From Picochlorum sp. 'celeri' (lineage: Eukaryota; Chlorophyta; Trebouxiophyceae): a stretch of DNA of 64,000 nt. The stretch is taken from positions 682,001 through 746,000 of the forward strand of contig JAACMV010000023.1 in assembly GCA_010909725.1 (NCBI GenBank), in the 5' to 3' direction. Below the pieces are notes generated by a model. It was not told the DNA's origin, did no database searches, and saw only the letters and a list, made by a program, of their open reading frames with translations. Below are positions 52,400 through 60,464 of this stretch, piece after piece; position 1 is the first letter of the stretch; each line of letters begins with the position of its first letter. The position numbers were made by a program, and so were the translations under genes.

Positions 52400-53677
52400 T
52401 TACACGAAAAACTCTCTCCCAGCCTCATCCCTCACCTTGATCTTCTCCTCAATCCCAAGGGATGCCATCTCCTCTGCAATGGAGGAAAACAACACTGATG
52501 ACAGATATCTCTCCCCAAACGATGGAATCACCACAACTATATTCTTTCCTTTATACTCCTTCTTTGACGCCACCTCCAACGCAGCACACACAGCAGCTCC
52601 GCTCGAAATACCCACCAACAAGCCTTCCTCTGTGGCAAGCCTCTTGGCCATCTCCACCGCCGCATCACTTGGAACCTTGACAATCTCATCATATATCTTG
52701 GTATCCAAAACCCCTGGAACAAACCCAGCACCAATTCCCTGAATCTTATGCGGCCCGGGGCCGCCACCAGACAACACCGCGCTCTCCTCTGGCTCCACCG
52801 CAACCACCTTGACTAACGGCTTTTTTTCCTTCAAATACCTTCCAGTCCCAGTAATAGTCCCTCCTGTCCCCACCCCAGACACGAGCACATCCACTTCTCC
52901 ATTCGTATCATTCCAAATCTCAGGACCCGTTGTCTCATAATGAATTGCCGCATTCGCAGGGTTTTCAAACTGCTGCAAAATGTAGGCATTCTCTGTCTCG
53001 GCAGCAATATCCACTGCCCTGGCAACAGCACCCTTCATCCCCTTGGCCGGGTCAGTCAACACCAGCTTTGCCCCAAACGCTTGCAACAACACCCTACGCT
53101 CCAAAGACATGGATGCTGGCATTGTCAGAATCAAATCATACCCCTTGGCAGCAGCCACAAAGGCAAGACCAATCCCTGTATTTCCACTCGTTGGTTCCAC
53201 CAACGTTGTCTTCCCAGGCTCAATAATACCCTTCTTCTCCGCCTCTTCAATCATATTCCTACCAATTCTATCTTTCACACTACAGCATGGCTCCATGCTC
53301 TCCAACTTGGCAATCAGAGTCGCCCCGCAGCCCGCACCAACTCGATTCAGATTCACCATGGGGGTATCCCCAACCAAGTCTGTAATAGACGACGCAATCT
53401 TTTGGGTCTTCTTCGTCACAGGACCCGATGATGACGCTGTTGATGATTCATTTGTAGTAGATGATGCAGCTGCTACATAATGCTGTCGTCTCGTGGCAAG
53501 ATTCTTCAAGGACGACAATGGAGATGATTGTCGACCACTCCCAACGCCCCGCATACCTGCTAGAGGCGATGGGTTCATCTGAGTATGAATTCTTGTCATA
53601 TGCAACATCGTATTCATATGAAGTATAATTCTACACAGACCACAGTCTCGTGTATCGTAGAGGTTCAGTGGAAGCAT
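52400..53677 (-). CDS. CYSK: Cysteine synthase (O-acetylserine (thiol)lyase)
   Basis: Intronless, 425 residues from the first ATG; later Mets (53617 onward) are also possible. The conserved part begins [23 protein letters not shown] lysine is in CCSVKDRIG, the substrate loop is [13 protein letters not shown], and the phosphate-binding loop is [16 protein letters not shown]. The C-terminus has [13 protein letters not shown]. It makes cysteine from O-acetylserine and sulfide. The Ser/Arg-rich stretch before residue ~100 fits a plastid transit peptide. It is convergent with the Der gene, 40 bp apart. Confidence 0.95.
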
Positions 53678-54535
53678 TTTAATGTACAATTTACAAAACT
53701 TTCGTGAATTCTACGACAGGGTCAATCTCCAGCGTCATAACTCCTGTTCCATTTAAAGTGTATAATACTATGTAGTACATATCCAGATATCACTATTCAA
53801 TACGTCTGTATCAACCTGTATACTGCCCCAGCTTCACATTGACGAGATGGGCAGTATAAAGGTTGAATGCAACAACACCTGCAAAGTCGTGCAATTCATA
53901 TCCCCTGTTCTATAATCAGAGAATAGAGGTATCACAGGGTGTACTGTTGTTCAAGATCTGGGCAAAGCCGACTGGGTGCCCTGTCCTGGCTGGTGAGTAT
54001 CTCCAATAAGGAGACTGCCAGTCGGTTCAAACACACTGCAAGGAAGTGCGTTGGAACATGGGGCACGTGGCAATGAATTGCCATCATATATATTATCAAT
54101 TTCAATCTTTATTGCGATTACACCATAGGAATACGAACGTTTGTCGATGGAAATGGCACGAGGTGCAATTGTCGCAGGTGGCGCCACCTGCGAGCCGGCC
54201 CTCCAAGAAAACCGACTTCCGATACAGCGTCAACGTGACGCTACTGTGCGGCTTTATATTGTTTGAATACAATTTACAATGAATTCACACATGCGATGTG
54301 GTTCTCCGAGGCACCCAATCAAGAAAATCGGTAGGCTCATCACCTCTCATGGTAATAGGCCCTCATGTATGGTCCGCGCGAGGACGTCGACGAGGCGCGC
54401 GTGGTGGTAAAAAGTACAATATTACGCTACGCGTGTAGGAGCCGGATTCCAACAGCTGCTTTCACAGCAAGAATACCAATCGTTGACATATATCTAAAAC
54501 CTCATTTTTTCGAAGCCTGATTTCCCAATGGAGAC
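53678..54535. other. Hairpin-rich spacer (possible non-coding RNA)
   Basis: 858 bp between divergent genes. In order it holds: an 18-bp arm hairpin (53811-53828 with 53849-53866, only the central 2 nt unpaired); a bulged hairpin (53903-53908 with 53934-53939, inner stem 53909-53913 with 53923-53927); a stem 53968-53975 with 54018-54025 enclosing a small TCTCC/GGAGA hairpin; a 7-bp near-palindrome (54068-54083); and a 22-bp perfect palindrome (54072-54093 region is separate: 54172-54193). No ORF of interest. Confidence 0.5.
54172..54193. promoter_or_regulatory. 22-bp perfect palindrome with nested E-boxes
   Basis: Half-site TCGCAGGTGGC. Each half contains CAGGTG, an E-box core for bHLH factors. 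It lies about 340 bp upstream of the hydroxyproline-rich Hint gene. Confidence 0.45.
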
Positions 54536-57500
54536 ATGGTGCAGGTAATTGTCTGCCTCTGCTTCCTGCTTCAAGTGTGGAGCAAATACCACCGTGTTTC
54601 TGGGAGTGAGGAAACTCGAATCAATGCTACGAGTACATATTTCAGGAGTAATGCGTGGGAGTTGGTGAAAGCTGGTAACAAGGCCGTCACCTCCCTCTCG
54701 GAGCTGACTGATGGTGTCTTTTCTTTTGAGTTGTTAGCAGAGAGGTCAGATTGTGGTAGAGGTACATTTTTTTCACCACGGACATGCGTCATGGTATTCA
54801 CATTATACATGCGTTTTTGATCTTTGTTGATGGTTATTCGATGTCCTCCTGCAGAGTACCTGGGGTTCTACGACAGGAACTGTTCTGTATCATTGTCTAG
54901 GAAATCCACTTCTGGGCCTGTCATGCGGGGACCCAGCGAATCTATGATGTGGCGAGAGTGGTTGGTTCGGGTGGAAGAAGACAAAGATGAGTCCAAGGAA
55001 ATTTCTCTTCAGGCATTCATCCATCCAGAGTTTGAAAAGAAGGCCAGGTGTCTTGGGTTTCTGAGCACCTTCTATAACAGCCCAGAGTACAAGGGGACTT
55101 GTGTTATTCCTCCATACGGAAATAGACTTTTTTTGAACGCCAGCGAGGATCAGTCTAGAAAAAGTTCGCAGATGTGGACAATTCGTTCTGCGAGTTCTGG
55201 GGAAGGAGTATTTGAGTTGAGTGCCTCCAACAAGCCAAATGTCTGCCGACGAGTGCTGGCTGTCGAGGGCTGTCAATCTCAACCAGCGCTTATATTTGAA
55301 GAATCTAGCTCTTATATCACAACATCCATCAAGCATAGGACCTGGAAGATAGTCAAGAGATACGACGTAGTCCCAAAGTCATCGCCACCTCCACCACCTT
55401 CAACTCCTTCTCCACCGCCGTCTCCTCCACAAGAAGACCTTGTATCACCACCACCACCACCACCGGCTCCAGTCCCAGGCCCAGTTATATCTGCACCTAG
55501 CTCCACGAGTTTGGGGTACGTAAATGTCCGAATAAATCAATTGGGGGGCAACAATCGCTGTTCTGTCAGAAATATTGTAATCACTGTCACAGCTAGCAGC
55601 ATTGGGTCAACTGCACAAACATTGGAGGTGTCTGCGTCCTGGCCAAACTTGAACTCTGCAGGTGTTGCCGTCCCTCTGCAACAAACTGGCTATAACTCTA
55701 TATATGCTACAGGGACATGCTCTTCAGGAGAGTCCACAGAGAGATCGAATGGCCTGTCAGTTTTCTACTCTGGCTCTGGAGGTCCTGCTCCAAGAATCGC
55801 AGACTCTGTGCTATTCTCCCTTCGATATGATGGCCTCAGCGGATCATCGTTTAGCCCAGCAGACAAGGATTTGGTTTGCGCAAATATTGATCAAGTTCAG
55901 CCCGGGGGAATCTGTGAAATCCTCTCTGTGCTTCCTGGCAGTGCAGTGGTCACAGGCACTGTGACATACCCTTCCAGCCAGGAAGCAACAAACCTCGTGC
56001 AGCAGCTCAACAGTGGATCCGCATCGACGACATTGGTACAAGGCAATTGGGCTTCGGGCACCCCAACAGGAGTGGTCACGGAGGTTGCTGAGCAGGAACC
56101 CCTCCCACCAACCCCGCGGACACCAGACCCACCAACAGGTGTTGGGATGACGCCATACAATGGCGATTGTCCAACTGCCGGCCTAGATGTATCTTTCACT
56201 CCTCCACCAGATAGAGCAGGCATTCTTGGATATATCACAACCTGTAGTCCTTCAGGGCCTTATTCAACGGCACCCTCCCTGTTGACTGCAACTGTTGTGA
56301 AAACTGGTGCCGGCACATCGCTCATCCGCGTGACGCCACTGAGCCCTCAGGTGAGCTACTCATGCTCGATACAAAGTCTATCTGTAGATGACGTATCTGC
56401 GTTGGCAACGTCTGGAGCGTCAGTGGCCACTGGCTGCTCTCCATCACCACCTCCTCCTTCGTCGCCACCCCCTCCATCACCACCTCCTCCTTTGTCGCCA
56501 CCCCCTCCATCACCACCTCCTCCTTCGTCGCCACCCCCTCCATCACCGCCTCCTCCATCACCACCTCCTCCATCACCACCCCCTCCATCACCACCCCCTC
56601 CATCACCACCCCCTCCATCACCACCTCCTCCATCACCGCCTCCACCTCCACCGCCATCATCGGCTACTGCTCCAACCATTTCTTCAGTACAAAGAAAGGC
56701 TGGATCCGAGAGCAGTGCGCTGCAGGTGACATGGACCCCAGGAAATGACAGTGTTCCTCCAGCAGGAGATCCAGCATTTTTTGTGACATGCATCGCGAGT
56801 GGTGACCCGTGTCCAGTATCTCCAACATATGTGTTGAACAGGCCACCCGGGACAATTACCACTGATGTCCCAGGTCTGCCAACCAATACCTTGTATGACT
56901 GTTATGTGGTAGCGAAAAACTCTCAGGGCAATGGTGTGTGTTCCATTGCACAAAGAAATTCCACATACCCTGCCCCTACCCCTCCAATAATATCTTCTGC
57001 TGATTACAATCCGTTTATTGATGTGTCAGTATCAGTCACATGGACCCCAGGAATAGACAGTGCTCCTCCAGCAGGAGATCCAGCATTTTTTGTGACATGC
57101 TTCACGAGTGGCACTCCATGCCCAGTATCTCCAGCATATAATGTGAGTAGGCCATCTGCGGCAACCACCACTATTGTGAGAGGTCTGCTAACTGACACAT
57201 CGTATGACTGTTATGTGGTAGCCAAAAGCTCTCAGGGCAATGGCGTCTGCTCGAGTATGAAAAATGTCACAACAACATTTTGTTTCCCTGGAGATTCTGT
57301 TGTGATTACCCCAACAGGAAAAAAGCTAATCTCTCATCTTGAGGTCGGTGATAAAGTTTTGACCGTCTCCAGAATGGGTTTGGTAATCTTTGAGGAAATT
57401 TACATGCTGGGGCACAAAGATTTCCACTCTGTAGGGTTATTCCTACAAATTCATACCCTCAGTAATGCTACCTTGCGACTTACACGCGACCACCAGATTT

Positions 57501-57943
57501 CATTTACATCCCAAGTAGATAAAGCACCTAAATATGGACCAGCAGCCGCAGTCAAAGTGGGTGATTATGTCCATGTTGTCTCAGAAGACAACACTATTGT
57601 ATCATTGAGCAAAGTTACAGCAGTAGAAGAGATCTTTGCACAAGGATATTTCAATCCCTACACCATGGAAGGAAATATTGTCGTTGATGGAATTGTCGCA
57701 TCCTGCCATTCGTCTTTCATCTTGGACAAGTTGTTCAATAGAATGGGAATATCCATCCCTGCTGGGTATCAGGCTGTGTTTGCTCCCTTGAGAGTTATTT
57801 TCAAAGCTGTTGGAGCAAAAGCATTCCAGCATATCCAACTCCTGGTAGATGCCATCATTGAAATAGTGAATCACCCTCACTTGACCTGGAGTCAGATCAT
57901 CAGAAATGAATTCTACTGCGGCAAAGTTTCCAAATGTGATTGA
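54536..57943 (+). CDS. Hydroxyproline-rich extracellular protein with C-terminal hedgehog-type Hint domain
   Basis: Exons 54536-54761 and 54855-57943 around a 93-bp intron (GTACAT...CCTGCAG, phase 1) give 1104 residues. Order: signal peptide (VIVCLCFLLQVWS); a Cys-containing beta-rich domain to ~245; a Pro-rich linker; a domain at ~280-420; a fibronectin-like region; a long Ser-Pro4 linker at ~605-678; two similar fibronectin-III-like repeats to ~880 (each with WTPG, PPAGDPAFFVTC and YDCYVVAK); then a Hint domain from Cys885 (CFPGDSVVITPTGKKLI), with LTRDHQISF (His955) and GIVASCHSSF near 1026. The C-terminal tail AVFAPLRVIFKAVGA resembles the adduct-recognition region of Hedgehog. Self-cleavage before Cys885 is predicted. 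Confidence 0.85.
56448..56660 (+). repeat. Ser-Pro4 coding tandem repeat
   Basis: A 15-bp unit (of type CCACCCCCTCCATCA) is repeated about 14 times and encodes the SPPPP linker of the Hint protein. In plants and green algae such stretches are hydroxylated and glycosylated. The antisense strand is open in frame here only because of the repeat. Confidence 0.9.
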
Positions 57944-58859
57944 AACAAACTCTTGTACTAGAAATGAAATGCACATGTATCGAATGCAACACAATATTGT
58001 AAACTAGCAAACTATTTTAATGTCGCCTTGGTGAGGGAAATTCCTTGACTCTAGTGTTACACACCTACTCTTTCGTACTCAAGAGTACACTGCCTGGACC
58101 CAAGATGGCCATTGTCTCCAGGTTTCGAACAAGGGCTTGTACAATACATGGCATGTCCAGCTTGGAATGTCAAGCAGATTGTCCTACTCGGCCACATTGT
58201 ATCCATTATTCTGCTTCAGATGTCCCTAAGTTTCATCTAGCAGACACAGATCCGTCAACGCACCCCTATGAAACAGCGAGACGGCCAAGGTCGTATGTGG
58301 CGCCCTGCGAGACTGGCAGTTGGGCAACATCTCTGCGCATGAGTGCCTGATCAGCAACTGATCGACGACAGTAGCATCTGTATTGGACAGTATTTTCATG
58401 ATATAGGTTTCGGAGCCTTTTGGGATGTATCCAGGAAGCTGAGATTCCTGGACTCTTGGGACCTGACCGTCTATAGTCGCAGTATCCGTTCATCAGATCC
58501 CTCTGATGGGTCGTGAGAACATCTTTCGGAACATGTCGACATCGGTCTGCTTGTACGGTCCCGGTGTCTACTGTGTGGGGCCTGGGCATCAATCTCAGTC
58601 CAATTTTCCAAGCAACGCAGACTCGTCTTGTCGAATGGATTGAGATGTAGCGGTTTTGGAATATTTGGTTGTATGTTAAAAATAATTAGGTGTTTATGGG
58701 AAACGTCGGTTTTTACATTTGAATAACTGTGTGAATACAATCGTGTCGTAGAATCAGCTTCTTCATCTTTTCTTTTCTCTTCTTCTTCTCCGTGGTAAGA
58801 AAGGACGACGGCGCCTTCTTTGTGATATACCACTAGTAATAGTGGTAGTAGCAATTGGT
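57944..58859. other. Long spacer with two perfect hairpins, no supported gene
   Basis: 916 bp upstream of SnRK1. Stem-loops: CCAGGAA at 58431-58437 with its complement at 58445-58451 (7-nt loop), and CATCAGA at 58491-58497 with its complement at 58502-58508 (4-nt loop). A ~100-codon plus-strand ORF ending at 58350 begins with a non-ATG codon and looks non-coding. The segment 58100-58600 is less AT-rich than its flanks, which would fit a non-coding RNA or leader exon. Confidence 0.4.
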
Positions 58860-60464
58860 ATGGCGTCTACACCGACAGGGCATGATATGGGTCACCACCC
58901 TGCTGCAGCTGCAGCAGCTGCGTCTGGGATCCCTGGAGCGGCACCGCATCCTCATAACAGCGCGGATTTCTTTCTATCGAACTATAGGTTGGGGAAGACG
59001 CTTGGTATAGGGTCGTTTGGGAAGGTCAAGGTTGCGGAGCATATCCTCACTGGGAATAAAGTGGCGATTAAGATTTTGAATAGGAAGAAGATTAAGCAGA
59101 TGGATATGGAGGAGAAGGTGAAGCGAGAGATTAAGATTTTGCGGTTATTTATGCATCCTCATATAATTCGGTTGTATGAAGTGATCGAGACGCCGACGGA
59201 TATATACGTGATTATGGAATATGTCCGGAGTGGGGAGCTGTTTGATTATATTGTGGAGAAGGGTAGGCTTGTGGAGGATGAAGCTCGGCATTTCTTTCAG
59301 CAAATTATATCTGGAGTAGAGTATTGTCATAGACATATGGTGGTGCATAGAGATTTGAAGCCAGAGAATTTGCTTTTGGATTCGAGGGCAAATGTGAAGA
59401 TTGCAGATTTTGGATTGTCCAATGTCATGCATGATGGGCACTTTTTGAAGACATCGTGCGGGTCTCCGAATTATGCGGCGCCGGAAGTTATTTCAGGGAG
59501 GTTGTATGCTGGGCCTGAGGTTGATGTGTGGTCGTGTGGGGTGATTTTGTATGCTTTGTTGTGTGGTTCCCTGCCGTTTGATGATGAGAACATTCCCAAT
59601 TTGTTCAAAAAGATCAAGGGAGGGATTTACACCTTGCCCAGTCATTTGTCTCCTGGAGCTCGGGATCTTATACCGAGGATGCTTTTGGTGGATCCGTTGA
59701 AACGGATAACGATCCCTGAGATTCGGCAGCATCCGTGGTTTACCATCCATCTGCCTCGGTATATTGCTGTGATGCAAGCTGGGCCATCATCGTCTGTTGG
59801 AGCCATGGTGGATACGGATTTGGTCAGGGAAGTTGAAAGGTTGGGATTCGAACGGCAGTTCATTATTGAAAGTTTGAGATCGAGACAACAGAATAAAGCA
59901 ACGGTGGCGTACCACTTGTTGGCTGATAATAGACACCGCATGCCATCGTCTGCATATTTGAAAGAGGAAATGACAGAAGGTAGAGATATTGGATCGTACC
60001 CGTCTGCCGGGATGGGATCGCAGCGTAGCTCTGGAAGTCTACAGCCAGCGCCTCGGATTGTCGTGGAGAGGAAATGGAGGCTTGGTATGAGAACGAGGTG
60101 CCATCCTGGTCACTTGGTTCAAGAATTGTGTCGGGTCATGCGTGCCAATAATGTATCGTACAAGATGGGCAAGACGCCGTATAATGTCAAGTGTAGAGTC
60201 GAAATGTACAGTGGTGACTCAAAGAATGATGCTGACACGTCCATGATGGTGGATGACGAGACGAGTGAGACCAGTATGAGGGACATGGATGATGGGACAG
60301 CAGTGCCCCCCACGAGGAATGCGCAGATTGAGGTGATCAAGTTTGAGTTTCAAGTGTATCGGACGAGGGAAGGAGAGTATACATTGGACGTTCAGAGACT
60401 TGAAGGTAGTTTGTTGATGTTTCTTTCATTATCATCAGAATTGATGAGCGCATTGCAGTGTTGA
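58860..60464 (+). CDS. SNRK1: SnRK1/AMPK catalytic alpha subunit
   Basis: Intronless, 534 residues. Kinase domain from ~37: GIGSFGKVKVAEH, VAIK (K71), HRDLKPEN (D165), DFG (D183) and activation-loop Thr198 in LKTSCGSPNYAAPE, the site of upstream kinases. A UBA-like autoinhibitory domain follows (~310-360: VREVERLGFERQFIIESLRS). The C-terminus is the KA1-type regulatory region (RKWRLGMRTRCHPGHLVQE, IKFEFQVYRT, YTLDVQRLEG). SnRK1 senses energy and carbon supply with beta and gamma subunits. The start is the ATG before ASTPTGHD; preceding in-frame codons are non-ATG. The N-terminus is His/Ala-rich. The convergent OTUD3 gene starts 12 bp past the stop. Confidence 0.95.
   Translation: MASTPTGHDMGHHPAAAAAAASGIPGAAPHPHNSADFFLSNYRLGKTLGIGSFGKVKVAEHILTGNKVAIKILNRKKIKQMDMEEKVKREIKILRLFMHPHIIRLYEVIETPTDIYVIMEYVRSGELFDYIVEKGRLVEDEARHFFQQIISGVEYCHRHMVVHRDLKPENLLLDSRANVKIADFGLSNVMHDGHFLKTSCGSPNYAAPEVISGRLYAGPEVDVWSCGVILYALLCGSLPFDDENIPNLFKKIKGGIYTLPSHLSPGARDLIPRMLLVDPLKRITIPEIRQHPWFTIHLPRYIAVMQAGPSSSVGAMVDTDLVREVERLGFERQFIIESLRSRQQNKATVAYHLLADNRHRMPSSAYLKEEMTEGRDIGSYPSAGMGSQRSSGSLQPAPRIVVERKWRLGMRTRCHPGHLVQELCRVMRANNVSYKMGKTPYNVKCRVEMYSGDSKNDADTSMMVDDETSETSMRDMDDGTAVPPTRNAQIEVIKFEFQVYRTREGEYTLDVQRLEGSLLMFLSLSSELMSALQC

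Follow-up and report, generated by a model that had tools for sequence, protein, structure and literature searches.

Here we report a gene for a Hedgehog-type Hint domain joined to a proline-rich, fibronectin-repeat protein in the green alga Picochlorum sp. 'celeri'. The gene lies at 54536-57943 of the window, a stretch of 64,000 nucleotides of contig JAACMV010000023.1 (positions 682,001 to 746,000 of the forward strand), to which all coordinates refer; every feature of the gene is on the + strand. It has two exons and encodes 1104 residues with a single terminal stop. Exon 1 (54536..54761) contains the start codon, a putative signal peptide MVQVIVCLCFLLQVWS, recognized by inspection only, and the start of an N-terminal module. 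A 93-nt intron with GT..AG borders (GTACAT..CTGCAG; 54762..54854) separates it from exon 2 (54855-57943), which runs to the terminal stop. The same exon junction is read through by the deposited protein P0004 (M9434_001031 of Picochlorum sp. BPE23), which is 97% identical to the window protein across the Hint part and the tail. From exon 2 onward the Hint domain shares one unbroken reading frame with the rest of the protein, so that, judged by sequence, it would not be part of another gene, a concern raised in an earlier note on this DNA. A Pfam Hint search of the genome (27.4 Mb, 30 contigs) found two copies only, one on the window contig (C23) and one on contig C3; they differ at 8 of 3408 bases and at two residues (P264L, F825V), and we read them as two haplotypes of one locus.

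The Hint domain occupies residues 885-1029 (57281..57715), with a predicted cut before Cys885, as delimited by Pfam, the predicted structure and fold matches. The earlier note had assigned a Hedgehog-type Hint (Hog) unit to this region and called for a profile search. The Pfam Hint profile (PF01079) matched the exon-2 protein at E=1.4e-30 and scored 107.8 bits against a cut-off of 29.7 in the C-terminal piece. The predicted model matched the Hedgehog Hint fold in Foldseek, where the top hit was 6TYY, the engineered fly Hedgehog D46H/D303H, level with wild-type 1AT0. In the alignment, the nucleophile Cys885 (C1 of Hint; 57281..57283), which is preceded by Phe884, Thr952 and His955 of the TxxH motif (LTRDHQ; 57482..57493) and Cys1026 of motif J (ASCHSS; 57704..57706) correspond to fly C1, the Thr and His of TxxH and the motif J Cys. 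All of them stand in the 1104-residue translation where the earlier note had placed them, and with the profile over its cut-off, the catalytic residues aligned and the fold matched, its Hog assignment is borne out. At the position of the Hedgehog general base Asp46 (fly Asp303), with no gap nearby, the window protein has His929 (57413..57415). His thus occupies position 46 both here and in 6TYY; it was designed in the mutant, whereas here it is natural and common among relatives.

Conservation was assessed in 51 Hint-bearing relatives, pooled from 35 rows and a further 16, of which 7 came from the last protein search (9 rows, 7 new) and 9 had earlier been dropped by the start pattern; four relatives without Hint were excluded. 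The rows are sequence clusters that include mutual close relatives, and the counts are of sequences, neither of species nor of events. C1 is Cys in all 48 relatives with a letter there and the TxxH His is retained in 49 of 50, which answers the earlier note's question whether Cys885 and His955 are kept; the motif J Cys is retained in only 18 of 51. At position 46, 37 relatives have His, 8 Asp, 2 Thr and 1 Arg, and 3 have a gap, making His the commonest state (37/48 with a letter); of the 11 closest relatives (P0004-P0014), all 10 with a letter there have His. A view of His46 as peculiar to Picochlorum was rejected because His is the commonest residue in the relatives sampled, and Asp46 as an animal-only state is not supported, since Asp occurs also in P0024 and P0052-P0056. 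These latter proteins represent another Hog group, which has Asp46 together with G[IM][HN]PYA, a sequence resembling motif L. In fly Hedgehog, the D303H substitution reportedly keeps structure and activity, broadens the range of sterols used and brings a strong gain on coprostanol and epicoprostanol (review PMC9163320; this and the other papers cited were available in part, and statements resting on them hold for those parts).

Behind the Hint domain lies a helical C-terminal tail (57716..57940), a candidate adduct recognition region by alignment and predicted structure. Helices are predicted at residues 1033-1038, 1043-1050, 1052-1081 and 1087-1099, confidence being low at the extreme end; in the 30-residue helix (1052-1081; 57782..57871) the hydrophobic moment is highest, about 1.9, over the last 18 residues. 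The sequence FAPLRV at residues 1051-1056 includes motif K (APLR), common to the tail, animal Hedgehog, Selaginella and other relatives; Pro1053 and Arg1055 align with it, the Arg being present in 49 of 51 relatives, and the His of HPR corresponds by ungapped count to Gln1048. In a profile comparison built on ten algal-type rows, motif K of the tail aligns with APLR of a fish Indian hedgehog. Human work locates HPR and HWY in and beside the helices of the sterol recognition region (SRR) (PMC7906309). Tail identity to 10 relatives is 0.56-0.97. In the nine relatives with both parts (P0004-P0012), Hint identity exceeds that of the adjoining fibronectin type III (fn3) repeat in eight and equals it in P0004 (0.98, 0.98), while tail identity exceeds it in seven, the exceptions being P0004 (0.95 vs 0.98) and P0012 (0.56 vs 0.58). 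This pattern fits a working Hint unit, without being proof of one. A wider profile reached the SRR of fly and human Hedgehog; it includes fish Hedgehog (P0029) and distant rows, and because animal Hedgehog is among its rows it is not independent evidence and was left unused for the tail.

The carrier of the Hog unit is probably a secreted protein of wall type. In agreement with the earlier note, a Ser-Pro4 linker, (SPPPP)n, at about 56438..56656 is followed by two fn3-like repeats, one at residues 683-785 (56675..56983), found by sequence searches, and one at residues 786-884 (56984..57280), which contains the best fn3 stretch; fn3 scores 51.4 bits in Pfam. As to the hydroxyproline-rich character named in the earlier note, what the sequence displays is the (SPPPP)n repeat. 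Hint and fn3 were over the cut-off in the Pfam scan of the protein, which otherwise listed only a weak Hint_2, with no N-terminal Hedge domain and no Pherophorin domain (PF12499); a genome search for the latter was empty but had no working control.

On balance, and with considerable reserve, we favour the following reading. The gene product would be a secreted, proline-rich surface or wall protein with fibronectin-III repeats, and its C-terminus would be a non-Hedgehog Hog unit made of Hint and a helical tail for adduct recognition. Within the secretory pathway, Cys885, aided by Thr952 and His955, would most likely convert the Phe884-Cys885 bond to a thioester. His929, replacing Asp46 of Hedgehog, would activate an alcohol, for which a membrane sterol or a similar lipid at the Hint-tail interface is the most likely candidate. 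Attack of this alcohol on the thioester would release the Hint part and leave a lipid ester at the C-terminus of the wall protein, which would hold the protein at the membrane-wall interface. Among these steps, self-cleavage of the predicted Hog unit is likely, and a sterol or some other lipid is a plausible acceptor.

Several observations weigh against this reading. The Pfam Hint match breaks off at position 163 of the 213 in the profile. When the ten algal-type rows served as a search profile, fly and human Hedgehog matched over Hint only, and motif K was not reached. Motif L (HWY), described by Burglin as primarily of Hedgehog Hogs (PMC2362128), is absent from the tail by reading, and the algal-type profile match ends before it. 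The earlier note had likened the tail to the sterol region of Hedgehog; the shared motif K upholds that likeness, and the missing HWY together with matches that stop at or within Hint limits it. Residue -1, which is Gly in Hedgehog (PMC13060885, PMC9163320), is Phe884 here, and Gly is found in none of the 11 closest relatives and in 8 of 35 relatives of the larger row set. The paralogues of the N-terminal module, described below, have no Hint. Finally, P0013, a gene model of Picochlorum renovo, is missing everything from position 46 up to the TxxH His, perhaps through a model error.

Two of these points, the P0013 model without an active-site core and the absence of Gly at -1, would suit a Hint fold that does not process itself and persists in a structural or inhibitory role. 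We regard that as unlikely, given the invariant Cys at C1 and catalytic positions that are retained at merely 68-70% Hint identity (P0012, P0007). Alternatively, the domain may cleave itself and pass the thioester to water, a small thiol or a wall-polysaccharide hydroxyl, with release or cross-linking instead of lipid anchoring. Such an outcome is possible but doubtful: the conserved tail, with its motif K Arg and predicted helices, calls for a function beyond hydrolysis, and position 46 keeps a residue that could serve as general base for an alcohol, even if the tail lacks HWY, the algal-type profile falls short of the sterol region, residue -1 is not Gly, and the remainder of the protein, with proline-rich linkers and fn3, is of wall type. 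It also draws on Hedgehog itself, in which cleavage by dithiothreitol (DTT) is independent of the sterol step, D303A being still active with DTT (PMC9163320).

As to origin, inteins and viral Hint proteins are also among the Foldseek matches, as they might be for a splicing intein, a bacterial-intein-like element or a recent gain from a virus or bacterium. We consider such an origin very improbable: the Hint domain ends the protein, with no C-extein, and the intein profile scored 14.7 bits against a cut-off of 24.5. Two viral-contig scans (P0003, alignment A1) gave 4 and 81 pattern matches and a scan of prokaryotic genome contigs gave 87, of which none was confirmed. Giant-virus Hint-domain proteins (Gaeavirus, Mimiviridae ChoanoV1) were seen among fold matches in the viral structure library. 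In a tree of 38 Hint domains the Picochlorum-type rows group with P0015-P0017 (92/70, 93/75), apart from the animal rows, which P0024 joins at weak support (82/70); the deep forks are weak and leave the ancestral state of position 46 unsettled.

The window protein is a variant within the known class of non-Hedgehog Hogs, set apart by its new carrier and by a natural His where Hedgehog has its general base. Like the non-Hedgehog Hogs of algae, mosses and protists (PMC2362128, PMC13353863), it has an N-terminus unrelated to Hedge and a C-terminal Hint with motifs J and K; in contrast to them, its N-terminus is of SPPPP/fn3 wall type, belongs to a paralogous family and comes from a green alga. 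Its motif J keeps the Cys, which is changed in untruncated moss and red-algal Hogs according to Burglin (PMC2362128). With the C-terminal domain of animal Hedgehog (fly 1AT0, human SHH) it has in common the Hint fold, C1, TxxH, the motif J Cys and the Pro and Arg of motif K, and it differs in that position 46 is His instead of Asp, residue -1 is Phe instead of Gly, and HWY and Hedge are both missing. Red algae and mosses have long been known to carry Hog domains behind a variety of N-termini (PMC2362128), a recent paper (2026) describes Hog genes in unicellular red algae, expressed mostly in haploid cells and of unknown function (PMC13353863), and a survey of eukaryotic inteins found Hint domains widespread, with function mostly unknown (PMC5784728). 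In the available part of Burglin 2008 no green alga is named among Hog carriers (PMC2362128). Among the matches listed in the open-licence literature there was no description of a Picochlorum Hog domain or of one attached to an SPPPP/fn3 protein, and the parts available of the open-licence Hedgehog and Hog papers gave no mention of a natural His46. The suggestion in the earlier note that the arrangement may be undescribed is therefore uncontradicted within those matches for this particular carrier; for Hogs on unusual N-termini in general it does not hold. What is new relative to this literature is the green-algal carrier of SPPPP/fn3 wall type, together with the natural His at the Asp46 position.

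What Hog proteins do outside animals is reported to be unknown (PMC13353863). Here a Hog unit sits on a defined wall-type protein of a small single-celled alga in which a single Hint locus was found, so that cleavage, adduct and knock-out phenotype would be directly testable. The natural His46 links a designed Hedgehog mutant to the wider family, predicts broader or different alcohol use and bears on the origin of the cholesterol specificity of Hedgehog. We propose tentatively, as a possibility that we would not yet bet on, that a green alga anchors a glycoprotein of its wall to the membrane through Hedgehog-style cleavage and C-terminal lipid esterification, with a natural His general base of the kind that fly Hedgehog gains only by engineering, that His is an older or commoner Hog state than Asp, and that the choice of nucleophile is looser than in animal Hedgehog. 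If true, the alga may tether a wall protein through self-cutting and lipid attachment, using a module of the type with which animals cleave Hedgehog and attach cholesterol to it. Patched was not found in the genome by a search that was positive in three control genomes, a result consistent with a function other than Hedgehog signalling. The genome has a domain of squalene/oxidosqualene-cyclase type on C23 and another, split into two pieces, on C3.

Upstream of the SPPPP linker, the protein has an N-terminal module and further beta domains, common to paralogues and absent from the earlier note. The module (residues 76 to about 252; 54855..55384) has block means of the predicted local distance difference test (pLDDT) of at most 56, and is followed by a first proline-rich linker (55385..55498). 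A beta-alpha-beta-beta-alpha-beta domain predicted at 55805..56095 (pLDDT block means 61-89 over model residues 321-410) sits between proline-rich linkers and is SEA-like by appearance only; self-cleavage occurs in some SEA domains. Mean pLDDT of the structure prediction for the N-terminal half is 54.9, and the Foldseek matches listed for it, mostly fibronectin-type chains, were set aside at a root-mean-square deviation over 12.

Searching the genome with the exon-2 protein turned up seven N-terminal-half matches (two on C17 and one each on C1, C18, C14, C2 and C22), about 410 to 605 residues long and 47-63% identical, and shorter ones of 180-200 residues at 49-51% identity on C2 and C22. With presumed allelic pairs counted once, the module would be common to about seven paralogous loci. 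A further, interrupted copy at C21:374636-376238 (L036/L054) has stops inside each of three matching pieces and looks decayed. Many more fn3 repeats of the same type occur elsewhere in the genome. The paralogues L047-L051 have in common with the window protein the N-terminal module, proline-rich linkers and beta domains, and in some cases fn3, whereas their C-termini consist of DUF285 arrays, fn3 arrays or other sequence, without Hint. DUF285 (PF03382) repeats, a family named from Mycoplasma, end L048, L050 and L051 (C17, C2) and score 125-572 bits in four proteins. The varied C-termini of the paralogues, and the different N-terminus that precedes fn3-Hint in P0013, suggest that the Hint unit is a replaceable C-terminal piece within a family of surface-type proteins. 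As for a glycosylphosphatidylinositol or transmembrane anchor in the paralogues, no scanned frame ends hydrophobic (best 19-residue mean over the last 100 residues at most 1.19), with L054 and L055 outside the scan and further exons possible; the 2.39 reached in L047 comes from another frame next to the one scanned.

Two frames beside the Hint gene have no evident tie to it. By reading, we take the frame at 52400-53689 (-) to resemble cysteine synthase and that at 58842-60464 (+) to resemble an SNF1-type protein kinase.
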